A DNA stretch of 21,274 bases from the IMG/VR virus record IMGVR_UViG_3300025889_001125, positions 1-21,274 of that record; one strand, 5' to 3'. This document shows, in pieces, positions 3,292-19,599 of this stretch; the stretch's first letter is position 1; the number at the start of each line of letters is the position of its first letter. The stretch is from a virus. A program made the position numbers and the translations under genes. The notes under the pieces are model-generated. The model ran no database searches and had not been told where the DNA came from. It worked only from the letters and a program-made list of their open reading frames with translations.

Positions 3292-3968
3292 TGAATCAAC
3301 AACCGATCCTAAATTTATTAAATAGAAGACAACACGTTATGGCCTACGATACAGAGGACATACCTGAAAAACAATTGATTGAAGATTTATTATGGAAGGC
3401 ATGGAAAGTTACACCATCTAAAAACAATTTTATGCCATATAATTGTAATGTATTAGGTCCTGATAAGGTAACAGAAAAACACTCTATATGGATGAAAAGT
3501 GTAAAGAATAAAAAACATATAAATGAAAAAAACATTGAAGATCATAAAGAAGAAGGATACAATCCGTACTTTGAACATATAAGTACAGCACCTTATCTAT
3601 TAGTATTTACACAAAGGGTATGTGATCCTAATGAGTACTACAGAAAGAGAATAGAAAAAGGAGACTACTACGAGCAAATGCACGAAGACGAGGTAGACTC
3701 AATGATGAGAACTACAACCGTAGAAGTAGGAATGTGGATGGCTAATTTATCAGCCTTTGCATTAGAGAAAGGTCTAAATACATCTACAATAGCATGTTTT
3801 CCATATAAACCTTTGTCAGCATGGGCAGATTTACCTTGGGTAAAACATCCTGTTGTATTGTTAGGTAGTATAGGTAAAGCAAAAGAATTTCGTAGAGAAA
3901 GTATGAGTGATGTTGAAAAGAAAGACGACAAGAAACCAGAACCTGAAACAATAATAAAGTGGATATGA
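3291..3968 (+). CDS. Nitroreductase-family-like protein, paralogue 2
   Basis: Product of 225 residues, clearly homologous to the gene at 1485: both have a basic N-terminus, a V-L-G-P strand, H-I-x-T-A-P followed by a hydrophobic strand and R-V-x-x-P-N-E-Y, a V-E-[VI]-G-M helix and I-G-K-A-K. This copy is closer to classical nitroreductases: NRRQHVMAYDTEDIP resembles the FMN phosphate-binding start, TPSKNN matches the P-S-x-x-N segment, and ANLSAFALEKGLNTS matches the family's helix and strand after the dimer interface. Expected to be a homodimeric FMN oxidoreductase; substrate unknown. The start overlaps the nrdB stop and the stop overlaps the next gene (ATGA). Family membership likely, function open. 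Confidence 0.75.
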   Translation: MNQQPILNLLNRRQHVMAYDTEDIPEKQLIEDLLWKAWKVTPSKNNFMPYNCNVLGPDKVTEKHSIWMKSVKNKKHINEKNIEDHKEEGYNPYFEHISTAPYLLVFTQRVCDPNEYYRKRIEKGDYYEQMHEDEVDSMMRTTTVEVGMWMANLSAFALEKGLNTSTIACFPYKPLSAWADLPWVKHPVVLLGSIGKAKEFRRESMSDVEKKDDKKPEPETIIKWI

Positions 3969-4513
3969 TATTAAGACCTACAACAATTATAATGCTTATT
4001 GACTTTGAAGGACATCCTGTTTTAGGTGATGAGTTTATAAACAATCAACGTTTTTCTACATTGAATGCTTTACTAAATCCTGTACGAGAGAAACCTCTTT
4101 TTATTATATCTAATCATCTTCCTCATAGACACAAACGAGTAGAGGAAGTTGCAAAGATGGTAAAAATAGAAAACAGACACATATGGAAAACTATTAATCC
4201 AGATGACAGCTCTGTTGAAAGTATTGTTGAAGAATTAAAACAAATGGATTACAGAATAGAAAATGTTATAATAGGTGGTACAAATATATCTGGTTGTGTG
4301 TTAAGAACTAAACCATATAGTGCCATGAGTTGGGCAAAGAAAGGATATGACGTACAAATATTATCAAACATGTGTGCTGATTATCAAATTACAGGTGTCA
4401 ACTCATTAGAACAAAATCAAAACTCCGTAGCGATAGTGTGGCATGAGGTTGCACAAGCAGGGTTTTTTAATAAAGTAAGTTATATAAGGGAGCATGAATG
4501 TCAGATAACATAA
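3965..4513 (+). CDS. Isochorismatase-like cysteine hydrolase, paralogue A
   Basis: Product of 182 residues from the ATG at 3965, which overlaps the preceding stop (ATGA); an in-frame GTG lies at 3959. The fold signature is visible: N-terminal strand ending in Asp (MLIDFEGHP, D13), a second hydrophobic strand (PLFIIS), a strand leading to the candidate nucleophile (VIIGGTNISGCV, C111), then a helix and strand (AMSWAKKGYDVQI) and MCADYQ. This order matches isochorismatase/nicotinamidase-type hydrolases, whose triad is Asp-Lys-Cys. The Lys is uncertain (K76 in IWKT is a candidate). A His-rich NHLPHRHKR follows strand 2, where nicotinamidases bind metal, but the exact motif is absent. Two relatives lie at 16501 and 17055. 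Substrate unknown. Confidence 0.65.
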   Translation: MILRPTTIIMLIDFEGHPVLGDEFINNQRFSTLNALLNPVREKPLFIISNHLPHRHKRVEEVAKMVKIENRHIWKTINPDDSSVESIVEELKQMDYRIENVIIGGTNISGCVLRTKPYSAMSWAKKGYDVQILSNMCADYQITGVNSLEQNQNSVAIVWHEVAQAGFFNKVSYIREHECQIT

Positions 4514-8420: not shown

Positions 8421-8575
8421 TAAGAGGTCTATTGACACTTACAATATTGTGGGTTATCCTTGCTTTTGCATGGGATCCATTTACGTCAACCGTTGAGAAA
8501 ACACAGGCTGTTGACAAAACAAAAGAAATAGTATATAATGTGTTTAATAATGTAAAGGAGAAGGTGAATGAGTAA
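8417..8575 (+). CDS. Small single-pass membrane protein
   Basis: Product of 52 residues. Start MIRGLLTLTILWVILAFAW gives one transmembrane helix or uncleaved signal anchor; the remainder is polar and helical (STVEKTQAVDKTKEIVYNV, ending KEKVNE). GGGAGGT sits 6 bases before ATG 8417, which overlaps the previous stop. A perfect sigma70 promoter (8511-8539) lies inside its 3' half and its end overlaps the next start. Function unknown; size and topology suit an accessory of the lipoproteins around it. Confidence 0.65.
   Translation: MIRGLLTLTILWVILAFAWDPFTSTVEKTQAVDKTKEIVYNVFNNVKEKVNE
8511..8539 (+). promoter_or_regulatory. Consensus sigma70 promoter inside a coding region
   Basis: TTGACA at 8511-8516, 17-base spacer, TATAAT at 8534-8539, all within the gene at 8417. 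It would give separate transcription of the LPP20-like lipoprotein and glutaredoxin genes. Both hexamers are perfect matches, and AAGGAG follows before ATG 8568. Confidence 0.7.
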
Positions 8576-16500: not shown

Positions 16501-17058
16501 GTGAAGACGGTTATATTATTAATAGATTTTAAAGGACATCCTGCCCTCGGTAGCGAATATCTTAACAATAGGAGATATGCCGAGGTGCAGAAAATCTTAA
16601 CAGATACACAAATAGATAGATCAAAAATAATATTTGCAGTTTCCAAAGGCAATAAAGATTTAAAACTTGAAGAACTTAAATTTATGGCTAAACACCTTGA
16701 TATTAAGTATTACGAATATGATTCACATATAACCTTTGAAGATTTACAAAAACAATTACTTCAACACCACAATTTTTTAATGGGTACAGATAATACACAG
16801 ATTATAATTGGTGGAACTAATACAGCAGGTTGTGTTATAAAATCATCTAAACCTATGAACGCAATTAATTCATATATTAAAGGTTATGCAACAACCATAT
16901 ATTTGCCAATGTGTGCTGAATATGAGCAACCAGGTATTAATGATATTGAAAGAACAATGGTGTCTTTAGTTGATGTATATAAATGGATTAAAAAGTATGG
17001 AGCATATAAAATAAAACTTGAAACAAATTATACAGAATTAAATTTACCCAAAAAATGA
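16501..17058 (+). CDS. Isochorismatase-like cysteine hydrolase, paralogue B
   Basis: Product of 185 residues from GTG 16501, with AAAGG 8-12 bases upstream; the start is fixed by alignment to its neighbour (MKTVILLIDF against MNTLILLIDF). D9 (LLIDFKGHP) and C111 (IIIGGTNTAGCV) match the Asp and nucleophile Cys of the isochorismatase fold, followed by the helix-strand INSYIKGYATTIYLPMCAEY. The Lys of the triad is not evident: the region before the last strand is YYEYDSHITFEDL. Paralogues A (3965) and C (17055) share L-I-D-F, I-I-G-G-T-x-x-x-G-C and K/R-G-Y plus M-C-A/D-x-Y. Coupled to paralogue C (ATGA). Substrate unknown. Confidence 0.65.
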   Translation: MKTVILLIDFKGHPALGSEYLNNRRYAEVQKILTDTQIDRSKIIFAVSKGNKDLKLEELKFMAKHLDIKYYEYDSHITFEDLQKQLLQHHNFLMGTDNTQIIIGGTNTAGCVIKSSKPMNAINSYIKGYATTIYLPMCAEYEQPGINDIERTMVSLVDVYKWIKKYGAYKIKLETNYTELNLPKK

Positions 17059-17729
17059 ATACACTTATATTATTAATAGACTTTGAGGGTGAAAAAGAAT
17101 TACAAGATCAGAATTACCTACACAAAAGATATCTTGCTTTAGCGAACATATTATCTAATAGATACATAGATAGAGAAAAATGTTTAGTTGTCTTTAATAC
17201 TTACAATAAACAGAAATCATGGATAAATCAATGGTCTAAACCACTTGATGAAAAATTAAGAGCATTAAGTAAATTTGCATGGATTAATAAATGGCAAGTA
17301 TTTGAAACATCAAAAGAAACTCAAACTGAAGATGGCTCAATAAAAGATATAGATATTGATTTTTTTATAGACACAATAAACAAAAAAGTATCAAATTTTC
17401 AATTTGATTCTAAAATTACAAAAGTAATAATAGGTGGTACAGAAACATCAGGTTGTTGTTTAGATAGTAAAAAACTAGGTGCCTTAAATTGGGTAAAACG
17501 AGGTTACGATACAACAATATATTTACCTATGATGTGTGATTATTCAACTGAAGGTGATACTTGGTATGAAAAACAACAATGTGGTTTTGTTAGCTTCTGG
17601 AGAACAGTAATTAACTCTAATTTAAGACCTGATTATTATACAAAATTGAGTGTAGAATACAAATATCAATCAATTTTAAAGAAATTACCAATGGTAACAA
17701 AAGATAAAAAAGTTGATCCATTAGCTTGA
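17055..17729 (+). CDS. Isochorismatase-like cysteine hydrolase, paralogue C
   Basis: Product of 224 residues, the longest of the three. D9 (LLIDFEGEK), then an insert of about 25 residues with many Trp and Lys (NKQKSWINQW; SKFAWINKWQV), then VIIGGTETSGCCLD with the nucleophile at C134, LNWVKRGYDTTIYLPMMCDY, and a C-terminal extension of about 45 residues (FWRTVINSNLRPDYYTKLS). A second Cys directly follows the nucleophile. Clear homologue of paralogue B, with which it overlaps (ATGA); the pair probably arose by tandem duplication and then diverged. Its TGA stop lies inside the -35 box of the next promoter. Confidence 0.65.
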   Translation: MNTLILLIDFEGEKELQDQNYLHKRYLALANILSNRYIDREKCLVVFNTYNKQKSWINQWSKPLDEKLRALSKFAWINKWQVFETSKETQTEDGSIKDIDIDFFIDTINKKVSNFQFDSKITKVIIGGTETSGCCLDSKKLGALNWVKRGYDTTIYLPMMCDYSTEGDTWYEKQQCGFVSFWRTVINSNLRPDYYTKLSVEYKYQSILKKLPMVTKDKKVDPLA

Positions 17730-17754
17730 CAATATTGACAAATTGTGATATAAT
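17726..17754 (+). promoter_or_regulatory. Sigma70-type promoter (TTGACA-17-TATAAT, extended -10)
   Basis: TTGACA at 17726-17731 (a second TTGACA at 17735 is too close), 17-base spacer, TATAAT at 17749-17754 preceded by TGA. TTGTGATATAAT is shared with the promoter at 19124. It drives the nuclease gene at 17786, which has GGAAAGG upstream. Confidence 0.88.
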
Positions 17755-17785: not shown

Positions 17786-18487
17786 ATGTTTAAACATGTT
17801 AAATTGAATGAAGAAGTATTGCCTAAATCGTTAGGTGTGAAAGGCAAGAATCAAAACGGTGTAAGATATTATACTATTGATGGTGTTAATATGCCTTCCG
17901 TTACATCTATACTAGGACAAATACCCGAAAAACAAGCAGGTCTACAGGCATGGCGAAATGCAGTTGGTGAGAAAATGGCTAACTACATATCAACGTCTGC
18001 TGTCAATAGAGGTAAGACAACTCATACCTTGATTGAGAATCACTTGAACAACGAAGACGAGAAGTCGGTAGGTATAACTGCTGTTACACCACTAGGTCTT
18101 TTTAGAATTATTAAACCATATCTTGCTAGAATAGATAACATACATTGCCTAGAAGAATACCTATACTCAAAAGAAATAAGTGTTGCAGGTCAGGTAGATT
18201 GTATTGCTGAGTATAGAGGTAAACTATCAGTTATTGATTTTAAGACCTCTACAAAGAAAAGGGATGCCAATTACAATTATGCTAACTTTTTACAATGTTC
18301 GGCATATGCAAAAATGTATGAAGAGCTATACCCAAATCACAAAATAGAACAAACTGTTATATTAGCCACATGTGAAGATGGTTTTGTACAAGAATGGATA
18401 CATACCGAAGATAAAATCAAAGAACACCAAGAGTTATTTTATAAACACACTAAAGACTTTTTTAACAGAAATAATATAAATAGTTAA
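17786..18487 (+). CDS. PD-(D/E)XK nuclease, Cas4/RecB-like exonuclease
   Basis: Product of 233 residues. Nuclease landmarks: R-G-K-x-x-H80-T-L-I-E (core helix), EEYLYSKEISVAGQVDCIAE with D138, then LSVIDFKTSTKK with D151-x-K153, and a later LQCSAYAKMYEEL helix. The order H ... G-x-V-D ... D-F-K-T-S ... Q-x-x-A-Y is the RecB/Cas4-type exonuclease layout, without the Cas4 Fe-S Cys cluster. The N-terminal segment (YYTIDGVNMPSVTSIL) is typical of the phage version. Probable role in recombination or host DNA breakdown. It is transcribed from its own strong promoter. Confidence 0.88.
   Translation: MFKHVKLNEEVLPKSLGVKGKNQNGVRYYTIDGVNMPSVTSILGQIPEKQAGLQAWRNAVGEKMANYISTSAVNRGKTTHTLIENHLNNEDEKSVGITAVTPLGLFRIIKPYLARIDNIHCLEEYLYSKEISVAGQVDCIAEYRGKLSVIDFKTSTKKRDANYNYANFLQCSAYAKMYEELYPNHKIEQTVILATCEDGFVQEWIHTEDKIKEHQELFYKHTKDFFNRNNINS
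18475..18482 (+). promoter_or_regulatory. Perfect T4-type late promoter box (TATAAATA)
   Basis: TATAAATA at the very end of the nuclease gene, about 82 bases before ATG 18564. It matches the T4 late consensus exactly and would transcribe the periplasmic protein and the tmRNA. An identical octamer at 1203 is inside nrdA and is probably chance. Confidence 0.5.
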
Positions 18488-18563: not shown

Positions 18564-18899
18564 ATGAAAAAAATATTAATAGTTTTAAGTATATTATTTG
18601 CAACTGTAGTTTATGCCGAGCATGAAGAATTTAGTAATGAAGTTTATATGCAACAGGTACCTGCTTTATGTGGTACAGTAAATGCTATACAAACTTATGT
18701 TGATCATTATAAATTTAAACCATATCACTTAACACTAGGTAGAACAGGTATGGTAGAAGATGGTGAACCAGTTTATATGATAACTTATATGGTAAATGAA
18801 GATAATACACAATCAATTGCTGTATTAGATATACCAAGTGGACTTGAAAGATGTATTTTATTTCATACATTTGATTTAGTAGTGCCACAAAAGAATTAA
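18564..18899 (+). CDS. Small periplasmic protein with Sec signal peptide
   Basis: Product of 111 residues. The signal peptide MKKILIVLSILFATVVYA has a predicted cut at VYA/EHE. The mature 93 residues carry two Cys (PALCGTVN and LERCILF), a likely disulfide, and strands (PVYMITYMVN, SIAVLDIPSG). Not recognised; a beta-rich secreted domain. AAAGGG lies 6 bases before the ATG. The gene ends directly before the tmRNA acceptor segment, so both may share a late transcript from TATAAATA at 18475. Confidence 0.75.
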   Translation: MKKILIVLSILFATVVYAEHEEFSNEVYMQQVPALCGTVNAIQTYVDHYKFKPYHLTLGRTGMVEDGEPVYMITYMVNEDNTQSIAVLDIPSGLERCILFHTFDLVVPQKN

Positions 18900-18900
18900 A

Positions 18901-18958
18901 CGTTGAAGGTAAGAGAATACCTGGAGAAGACGTGGCTGCAATGCCACCCACTCCACCA
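18901..18958 (+). ncRNA. ssrA: Two-piece (circularly permuted) tmRNA, acceptor part
   Basis: This is the 3' half of the tRNA-like domain, placed upstream as in permuted ssrA genes. The 3' end is C-C-A at 18956-18958 with discriminator A 18955. The 3' acceptor strand CCACTCC (18948-18954) pairs all seven bases with GGGGTGG at 18978-18984, giving a G3-U70 wobble, the alanine identity mark. The T-arm is GTGGC (18932-18936) / GCCAC (18943-18947) around TGCAAT, with GAC before it as in other tmRNAs; the loop is one base short. GGTAAG (18908-18913) can pair with CTTACT (19010-19015) as a P2-like stem. The 5' end is approximate. 18959-18977 is the intervening segment. Confidence 0.85.
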
Positions 18959-18977
18959 TTTAAACAATGAAATTTAA

Positions 18978-19123
18978 GGGGTGGAACTAGGATCGATTCA
19001 CAGTTAAAACTTACTGGAGTTTAGTCGCTGACAACGTAAAGTCATCTTATAAATGCTAACAATTTAGCGATGGCAGCTTAATACTGCTAAACGGTTTGCC
19101 TGTACCGAGTAACAGAAACAGGC
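18978..19123 (+). ncRNA. ssrA: Two-piece (circularly permuted) tmRNA, coding part with tag frame and PK2
   Basis: Begins GGGGTGG (18978-18984), the 5' acceptor strand, then AACTAGGATCGA, resembling the conserved tmRNA D-loop (CTGGATTCGA in E. coli). The resume signal TTTAGTC-GCT (resume codon 19027-19029) is close to E. coli AATAGTC-GCA, and reads A-D-N-V-K-S-S-Y-K-C-stop. A second frame from GCT 19055 reads A-N-N-L-A-M-A-A then TAA 19079-19081, a classic degradation ending. The frames differ by +1 near 19051. After the tag an H-type pseudoknot follows: CGGT (19092-19095) / ACCG (19104-19107) and GCCTG (19098-19102) / CAGGC (19119-19123). No usual PK1 is seen; a hairpin AAACT/AGTTT (19007-19022) takes its place. 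The 3' end is approximate. Confidence 0.82.
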
Positions 19124-19151
19124 TTGACAAACACGTAGATTGTGATATAAT
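19124..19151 (+). promoter_or_regulatory. Sigma70-type promoter (TTGACA-16-TATAAT, extended -10)
   Basis: TTGACA at 19124-19129 directly after the tmRNA pseudoknot (CAGGC), 16-base spacer, TATAAT at 19146-19151 preceded by TGA. TTGTGATATAATA is shared with the promoter at 17726. It serves the gp33-gp59 operon; TGAGG precedes ATG 19175. Confidence 0.88.
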
Positions 19152-19174
19152 ATTATTATAAAGTGAGGTAAATT

Positions 19175-19378
19175 ATGAGTGAAAATATAGAAAGAGATTC
19201 CCGTGAGCATGATATGACTTATGAGAATGAACAATCAACGGTAACAATACCGTTAAAAGAATATGATAGACTAAAAGCAGAACAAACTTATATCACAGAC
19301 CCAAGTTTAATTAGTATCATAGATAAAATAGAAGAACTAACAAGAGCATTAAGAAAACACATAGTAAGAAAATTCTGA
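19175..19378 (+). CDS. Small hypothetical protein with coiled-coil end
   Basis: Product of 67 residues. Acidic polar N-terminus (MSENIERDSREHDMTYENEQ), then TVTIPLKEYDRLK, a helix-starting pattern like the I-P-x-x-E-Y-x-x-L of small phage coiled coils, and a basic helix (ELTRALRKHIVRKF). First gene after the promoter, before gp33, with its stop overlapping the next start. Not recognised. Confidence 0.7.
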   Translation: MSENIERDSREHDMTYENEQSTVTIPLKEYDRLKAEQTYITDPSLISIIDKIEELTRALRKHIVRKF

Positions 19379-19599
19379 TGTTAATGAATAGTAAAAAGTT
19401 TGCTCAAATAATAGAGGCAATAGTAAAAGAGAAACGGATGTCCTATATGGATGCCGTGTTAAAATATTGTGAAGAAAATGATATTGACACAGCGTCTGTA
19501 GGTCCTTTAATCAACAAGTCACTAAAAGAAAAGATAAAAGAAGAGGCAGAAAAGCTAAACTTGGTTGAACGATCAAGCACAGCAATCTTACCTATATGA
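19378..19599 (+). CDS. 33: Late-transcription coactivator, T4 gp33-like
   Basis: Product of 73 residues (71 from ATG 19384). KKFAQIIEAIVKEKRMSYMD, then A-V-L-K-Y-C-E-E-N-D-I-D, then GPLINKSLKEKIKEEAEKLN and L-V-E-R-S-S. This lines up with the C-terminal two thirds of T4 gp33 (F-I-I-E-K-M-V-E-E-F-G-M-S-Y, E-E-N-S-I, F-I-P-S-G-I-I-E-K-I, L-L-R-P-S). T4 gp33 binds the RNA polymerase beta flap and joins the sliding clamp to the late sigma factor gp55. The version here is short, as in other marine T4-like phages. gp55 is not in the window. It supports the late boxes at 10261, 10810 and 18475. Coupled to gp59 (ATGA). Confidence 0.82.
   Translation: MLMNSKKFAQIIEAIVKEKRMSYMDAVLKYCEENDIDTASVGPLINKSLKEKIKEEAEKLNLVERSSTAILPI

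Follow-up and report, generated by a model that had tools for sequence, protein, structure and literature searches.

A circularly permuted (two-piece) tmRNA gene, with a six-nucleotide T-loop and a covarying spacer hairpin, in a probable pelagimyophage

Why should a virus carry an RNA for the rescue of stalled ribosomes when its host has a copy of its own? The question is raised by a 21,274-base virus record, IMGVR_UViG_3300025889_001125 (the whole of which is called the window here), in which a transfer-messenger RNA (tmRNA) gene, ssrA, had been predicted in its two-piece (split) form, which is rare. The record contains T4-like genes, amongst them those for ribonucleotide reductase subunits, a PD-(D/E)XK exonuclease, a gp33-type coactivator, a gp59-type helicase loader and endolysins. 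Since the ribonucleotide reductase beta subunit finds its best phage matches, among those listed, in Pelagibacter phage Mosig (74.7%) and then HTVC008M (67.8%), SAR11 is the probable host, and the virus is probably a T4-like pelagimyophage. The presence of a phage-borne, circularly permuted tmRNA gene of the alphaproteobacterial type is supported, because covariance models, covariation amongst relatives and synteny with the annotated SsrA of Mosig agree. We consider it highly probable that positions 18896–19123 encode a functional-type two-piece tmRNA of this pelagimyophage, acting by the rescue mechanism proposed below. As to why a virus should carry such an RNA, close relatives that have the gene and others that lack it are available for comparison among these phages.

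Two Rfam covariance models recognise the locus above their gathering scores, as the prediction implied: tmRNA_permuted (RF04321) matches 18897–19081 with 75.6 bits (gathering 47) and alpha_tmRNA (RF01849) matches 18840–19126 with 64.3 bits (gathering 50), the E-values of the two matches being 3.6e-13 and 8.4e-16. The structured span has the 3' end originally predicted and is slightly longer on its 5' side than the 18901–19123 proposed; the parts of the gene, the promoters and the exonuclease and gp33-type genes described below are on the + strand. The acceptor piece (18896–18958), identified by both models and by covariation, lies upstream of the coding piece and comprises the outer helix strands, the T-arm, the acceptor 3' strand CCACTCC (18948–18954) and ACCA (18955–18958), which provides the CCA end. 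The coding piece (18978–19123), identified by the Rfam models and the alignments, contains the acceptor 5' strand GGGGTGG (18978–18984), the D-loop, helix strands, pseudoknot 1, the tag frame and pseudoknot 2. All seven acceptor pairs form, including the alanine-identity pair G3-U70 (18980/18952); this is U-G in 40/40 aligned phage sequences, the window's included, a conservation that is partly biased because the aligned set was picked by a pattern including TCCACCA and GGGG. The T-arm (18932–18947; GTGGC-TGCAAT-GCCAC, a 5-bp stem with a 6-nucleotide loop, seen in the sequence and in parsed phage loci) and the D-loop-like GGATCGA (18990–18996) are likewise present. Pseudoknot 1 (19026–19044; 19026-27/19035-36 and 19029-32/19041-44) precedes the tag, and the predicted 3' H-type pseudoknot, pseudoknot 2 (19092–19123; 19092-95/19104-07 and 19098-103/19118-23), follows it; together they are helices 7–12 of the 40-sequence alignment described below. 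Pseudoknots on both sides of the tag are expected in tmRNA, according to PMC3985003. A further pairing spotted by eye, of ACGTTG (18900–18905) with CAACGT (19032–19037), was dropped, as it is not kept in relatives such as locus L049.

Relatives' loci were obtained by a scan of viral contigs with the exonuclease protein (best 80 of 193) and from the tmRNA-like pattern matches listed; some contigs contributed more than one locus. Selection by the spacer hairpin gave, for the pelagimyophage type, 40 distinct sequences from 64 loci, the window's included; four loci cut by the locus end (L057, L145, L171 and L183) were left out. A 37-sequence alignment excludes L113, L167 and L181, which looked most divergent, and a 40-sequence alignment includes them. 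In the latter, 94.8% of 1991 cells are paired, a measure that favours the structure because this was written from one row, the window sequence, after the alignment containing it had been viewed; 34/50 pairs are changed on both sides (233 such cells), counts in which related rows figure many times, and 0/500 shuffles are as high. The corresponding values for 37 sequences are 96.4% of 1843 cells, 24/50 pairs and 200 cells, again with 0/500 shuffles as high. As regards further pair types, 471/500 shuffles are as high for the 37 sequences and 9/500 for the 40. Structures slid by 1–3 columns have 34.1–51.0% of cells paired (40 sequences). Double changes occur in 3/6 pairs of pseudoknot 1 in the smaller alignment and in 4/6 in the larger; the helices of pseudoknot 2 are found in both. 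There are weak spots in the 40-sequence alignment: in 23 rows the last pair of the T-stem, next to the loop, does not form as aligned, since it is shifted by the one-base difference in the loop; two pairs of helix 3 fail in 8 and 9 rows; and in pseudoknot 2 pairs are broken in as many as 7 rows, in part through a replaced stem (L068, L069, L078) or failed alignment (L113, L167, L181). The pairings are nevertheless kept by compensating changes in related phages, and so withstood a check that could have gone against the prediction. Taken with the sequence itself, the comparison shows that the order is permuted, that the tRNA-like domain has the alanine identity pair, that two pseudoknots flank a short open frame and that the folded RNA is under selection.

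The tag frame occupies 19055–19081 (GCT AAC AAT TTA GCG ATG GCA GCT TAA) and reads ANNLAMAA-stop, so that the anticipated AMAA ending is present. From the sequence comparison, the resume codon is GCT at 19055–19057, preceded by TATAAAT: the AAA-N-GC context there is invariant in both alignments (A168–A170, G172 and C173), whereas TAGTC varies. It was the TAGTC-GCT at 19022–19029 that had been taken for the resume signal, and this proved wrong, because it overlaps pseudoknot 1 and is out of frame with the tag; the distance between its GCT and the first codon of the AMAA frame is 28 nucleotides, not a multiple of three, and the frame of this upstream GCT, read by eye, gives ADNVKSSYKC-stop. ARAGORN assigns ANNLAMAA to six relatives with 7-nucleotide T-loops (L016, L049, L062, L065, L067 and L115). 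Tags of the ANNLA type occur in 48 loci in seven nucleotide forms, six of which encode ANNLAMAA (45 loci) and one ANNLAIAA, although the sameness of the protein is partly circular as the loci were grouped by tag. Within these forms the bases vary mostly without altering the tag.

Tags differ more widely across the 68 pelagimyophage-type loci: ANNLAMAA in 45, ADSQGFALAA in 6, ANNLAIAA, ANNNFAMAA and ANSQGYALAA in 3 each, ANESYALAA, ANLNSFALAA and a 22-residue LRLAA-ending tag in 2 each, ANSQGFALAA in 1, and 1 unparsed. Amongst 143 parsed phage tags, 126 end in A(L/M/I)AA and 17 otherwise (RLAA 8, RMAA 3, AQAA 3, AAAA 2, SLAA 1). The 84 parsed SAR11 host loci, one of them over-read, include ANESYALAA in 40 and ANNLAMAA in 0; they are part of 139 host matches. 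The host tag ANESYALAA is carried exactly by phage loci L096 and L189, and also by L167 when read by eye. The ALAA end is recognised by ClpX or ClpA, according to PMC3985003; the AMAA end is close to the host ALAA/AIAA end, and therefore an altered fate of the tagged protein is not indicated. It should be noted that some phage tags have a non-alanine resume codon: L039 (5139–5360, DNHIDYRMAA), L081 (DNESYRMAA) and L003 (GEDNFALAA). L105, L113, L134 and L181 have 22-residue tags of the ANKKALGFADLTV...LRLAA type and group beside SAR11 host genes; L113 and L181 have the pelagimyophage spacer hairpin.

This hairpin belongs to the intervening spacer (18959–18977), presumed to be removed, in which TTAAA (18960–18964) pairs with TTTAA (18973–18977) around the loop CAATGAAA. 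The spacer is 18–19 nucleotides long in the 68 loci and 19 in the window. Compensating changes are seen in its stem (TTAAA/TTTAA, TCAAA/TTTGA and TAAAA/TTTTA among others), with 100% of cells paired and double changes in 5/5 pairs in the 40 sequences, and in 3/5 in the 37. The loop is CAATGAAA in 65/68 loci, and CTATGCAA, CAATGCAA and CAGTGCAA in one each, a near-invariance that is partly built in because loci were picked by a loop pattern (C, any base, A/G, TG, any base, AA). Not every member of the group has the hairpin, since other spacers occur in L044 and L039, two relatives in which the order of genes is the same; a loop of the CAATGAAA type was found in 0/84 SAR11 host loci, whose spacers are of 5–17 nucleotides. 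Because the stem covaries and the loop is near-invariant although the spacer should be discarded, the loop CAAUGAAA may be a recognition site. It is a tentative and rather unlikely extension of this that pelagimyophages run a phage-specialised trans-translation, in which CAAUGAAA would be recognised by a dedicated processing or control factor. Combined with a tolerated 6-nucleotide T-loop and exchanged tag modules, this would let the phage adjust ribosome rescue, or its timing, independently of the host's RNA.

How might the RNA act? A single precursor would be transcribed, perhaps by read-through from a promoter at 17726; host tRNA-processing enzymes would excise the 19-nucleotide spacer hairpin, leaving two pieces that remain paired. 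The RNA would then be charged with alanine, bind host SmpB and, during infection, enter ribosomes halted on mRNAs that are broken or lack a stop codon. The unfinished chain would receive the charged alanine and the tag ANNLAMAA, and would be released and degraded by host proteases. The phage would benefit because ribosomes go on cycling as mRNAs are being cut and replaced. Judged by what is generally known of trans-translation (PMC3985003), the most likely role is to free ribosomes that have stalled in infection on mRNAs cut or left incomplete, for which the phage RNA would use the SmpB, alanyl-tRNA synthetase, EF-Tu and proteases of the host.

Several points weigh against this reading. Expression, processing and charging of the phage tmRNA are what we infer from the sequence. 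The window T-loop, TGCAAT, has 6 nucleotides and departs from the usual seven, and ARAGORN, run over the window, called no tmRNA. The RF04321 score of 75.6 bits compares with about 123–146 bits for SAR11 host genes. The gene is an optional accessory cassette, and dispensable, as 24/71 relatives are without it at this position. Of the phage records searched for SmpB (PF01668), in 12/12 of which it had no match, so that host SmpB presumably serves, several are fragments and none is rated at least 90% complete; the same search was positive in 10/14 control genomes. Finally, the benefit of a second tmRNA is unproven, because 129/147 genomes of the SAR11 order have a copy of their own by RF04321 (as do 14/20 in another set of SAR11 genomes, with four genomes in both).

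The T-loop bears directly on the missing ARAGORN call. A 7-nucleotide T-loop is customary for tmRNA, but does not strictly define the family. The loop has 6 nucleotides in 23/157 and 7 in 134/157 parsed phage loci, and 7 in 83/83 parsed SAR11 host loci (of 84). Of the 23 shorter loops, 22 are of the TGCAA(T/C) kind; their loci reduce to 8 distinct sequences, one of them the window's, when some 250 bases are compared, and the keeping of one loop kind in all 8 indicates continued selection. The other, in L131 (pattern at 2875–2920), is TTCGAA and is likewise missed by ARAGORN. The program detected 0/23 phage loci with 6-nucleotide loops, 95/134 phage loci with 7-nucleotide loops and 82/83 host loci; in a run on 28 loci it found 24, and the four missed (L001, L010, L066 and L096) are all of the 6-nucleotide kind. 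Among the 39 missed phage loci with 7-nucleotide loops are some truncated at a locus end (L057, L171). The ARAGORN check suggested with the original prediction thus failed in the window, but is not decisive, because no locus of this loop length was found by the program; that the shorter loop causes the misses is not proved. Surveys based on ARAGORN may therefore undercount phage tmRNAs.

With respect to its presence, the tmRNA pattern was sought at the 80 exonuclease loci, 71 of which reach at least 700 bases downstream; of these, 47 have it and 24 do not. RF04321 had no match in the available sequence of 24/24 gene-less records, most of which are fragments, and in 16/24 the locus matched no Rfam family at all. 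A consensus sigma-70-type promoter, TTGACA-16-TATAAT (19124–19151), begins on the base after pseudoknot 2 and is the presumed promoter of the downstream genes; it persists in the 24 gene-less loci as GCTTGACA, and in four of these (L013, L014, L018 and L028) it stands almost directly after the small open reading frame (ORF) that precedes the tmRNA position. Another, TTGACA-17-TATAAT (17726–17754), upstream of the exonuclease gene, is the nearest perfect upstream match able to transcribe the tmRNA. Perfect TTGACA-TATAAT promoters number three in the window (8511–8539 in addition to these two), all on the + strand, against 0.06 expected. A late promoter TATAAATA at 18475–18482 was considered for the tmRNA and rejected: it is without statistical support, because the window has fewer matches than expected (2 versus 5.4). 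On a tree of the exonuclease, in which the outgroup branches are very long, the gene-less rows need at least three changes of tmRNA presence, which is therefore labile. Loss and re-gain by recombination is most simply proposed, the three changes giving no direction.

Recent uptake of the gene from the host, as had been suggested, is not supported. In a midpoint-rooted tree of 130/211 rows, which took a random sample of 45 from the host rows and 40 from the remaining phage rows and in which the bootstrap had not settled, the 45 host rows form one side of a branch (100/96). Eleven names were dropped (nine long branches, L131 and L182), and beta- and cyanobacterial rows were not in the tree. The 49 phage rows of one group (97/81) include the window gene, which lies beside the SAR11 genes, those of Mosig and HTVC008M and 40/42 rows with the spacer hairpin; the two exceptions, L113 and L181, are placed with L105 and L134 on the side of the host rows (99/93). 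Most pelagimyophage tmRNA genes thus have an old history in phages in common. The pelagimyophage-type rows and every one of the 45 SAR11 rows come together in a branch of 98 rows (99/88). A deep alphaproteobacterial origin of the pelagimyophage gene is likely. L044 matches the window gene in its outer parts and in its type of tag, and differs from it in the T-arm, the acceptor stem and the spacer, a mosaic that points to exchange of gene segments by recombination.

Other explanations of the locus have to be set against this evidence. That an AT-rich spacer has folded by chance would fit the missing ARAGORN call and nothing else; the two covariance-model matches and the covariation across 40 sequences refute it, and its probability is negligible. 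The same missing call, together with the 6-nucleotide T-loop, covariance scores below those of host genes and the absence of the gene from 24/71 relatives, might be expected of a decaying or non-functional remnant carried along by the phage. Decay is, however, hard to reconcile with compensating changes in 40 distinct sequences with 94.8% of cells paired, which indicate continued selection, with the keeping of one 6-nucleotide loop type in 8 distinct sequences (22 loci), or with the preservation of the protein by six of the seven ANNLA-type nucleotide forms; we regard a remnant as very unlikely.

The remaining alternatives concern the role of the RNA. It had been suggested that the phage retags proteins, in which case ANNLAMAA would direct stalled or host proteins to a fate other than that of the host tag; the absence of ANNLAMAA from the 84 SAR11 loci, 40 of which read ANESYALAA, is in keeping with this. 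Yet phage loci L096 and L189 (and L167 by eye) have the exact host tag, and 126/143 phage tags have the A(L/M/I)AA end, close to the ALAA that ClpX or ClpA recognises (PMC3985003), which leaves retagging unlikely. A decoy role, in which host SmpB or some other factor would be titrated and host trans-translation so blocked, has been suggested for the tRNA-like-only RNA of mycobacteriophage DS6A (PMC4131195, PMC11915505), and a phage gene with its own tRNA-like domain, in records where the 12 searched show no match to SmpB, could serve in this way. The window gene, unlike that of DS6A, keeps an open tag frame ending in AMAA-stop and both pseudoknots, which a decoy would not obviously need, and such a role seems very unlikely. 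Both retagging and a decoy are less likely than ribosome rescue, which we retain as the probable role.

The neighbours of the gene are as follows. Upstream is the PD-(D/E)XK exonuclease gene (17786–18487; phrog_298, E 2.7e-56; PF12705) that served as the query for relatives, followed by the small ORF (18564–18899), which has a signal-peptide-like start, a stop codon overlapping the 5' end of the tmRNA, and no PHROG or Pfam match; relatives such as L013 have a different variant upstream of the tmRNA position. Downstream is the gp33-type late-transcription coactivator gene (19378–19599; PF16805, E 3.4e-24; phrog_254). Elsewhere, ORFs at 3959–4513, 16501–17058 and 17055–17729 look paralogous by eye, with LIDFEG-like starts and an IIGGT-GC motif; the one of them examined, 17055–17729, had no PHROG or Pfam match.

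The closest known counterpart is the ssrA of Mosig EXVC030M (MT647606), likewise a two-piece tmRNA, with a PD-(D/E)XK nuclease gene and a small ORF on one side and a late-transcription accessory gene on the other. SsrA is annotated at the corresponding position of the Mosig record and scores 93.6 bits with RF04321; it differs from the window gene in its tag, GEDNFALAA, its 7-nucleotide T-loop, its longer spacer and its detection by ARAGORN. The published pelagiphage HTVC008M has a two-piece tmRNA at L002 2742–3053 (KC465899.1 145103–145414; RF01849 83.8 bits; ARAGORN tag ANFNEYALAA), and its GenBank record has no tmRNA among the annotated features at that position. According to PMC9004378, two-piece ssrA genes have already been published for Mosig and for the Methylophilales phage Melnitz, the latter, known here from that publication, being of the alphaproteobacterial type like the window gene; the same paper gives 53 two-piece forms among 133 unique phage tmRNA structures in an ARAGORN survey, and permuted tmRNA in 17/47 contigs clustering with Melnitz. 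It also describes a glutamine riboswitch at ssrA for Melnitz and predicts one for Mosig. The riboswitch family gave no match in the window at gathering, none in 18800–19200 at E<=1, and none at E<=0.5 in L002 or in L003 (ssrA at 29654–29957), in contrast to the Mosig prediction; the published claim is not thereby disproved, because L003 represents 30 of Mosig's 141 kb and Melnitz lay outside the comparison.

More distant systems place the gene further. The DS6A RNA is also a phage-borne tmRNA relative, but has little beyond a tRNA-like domain, and a molecule similar to it is reported to inhibit tmRNA (PMC4131195). Compared with the Rfam families RF01849 and RF04321, whose gathering scores it passes, the window gene has a shorter tag and coding piece and lacks one T-loop position. 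SAR11 host ssrA has in common with it the permuted order, the acceptor stem and a resume context of the AAAT-GC type, and differs in its spacers of 5–17 nucleotides, its nine-residue tags (most often ANESYALAA) and its separate tree branch. No published description of a 6-nucleotide T-loop or a spacer hairpin was found in titles and abstract openings, which is weak evidence of absence. A phage-borne two-piece tmRNA is thus known, and what is peculiar here are small structural features, the 6-nucleotide T-loop and the covarying spacer hairpin with its near-invariant loop; Mosig and HTVC008M, each cultured on HTCC1062, are two systems in which the role of the tmRNA could be tested.
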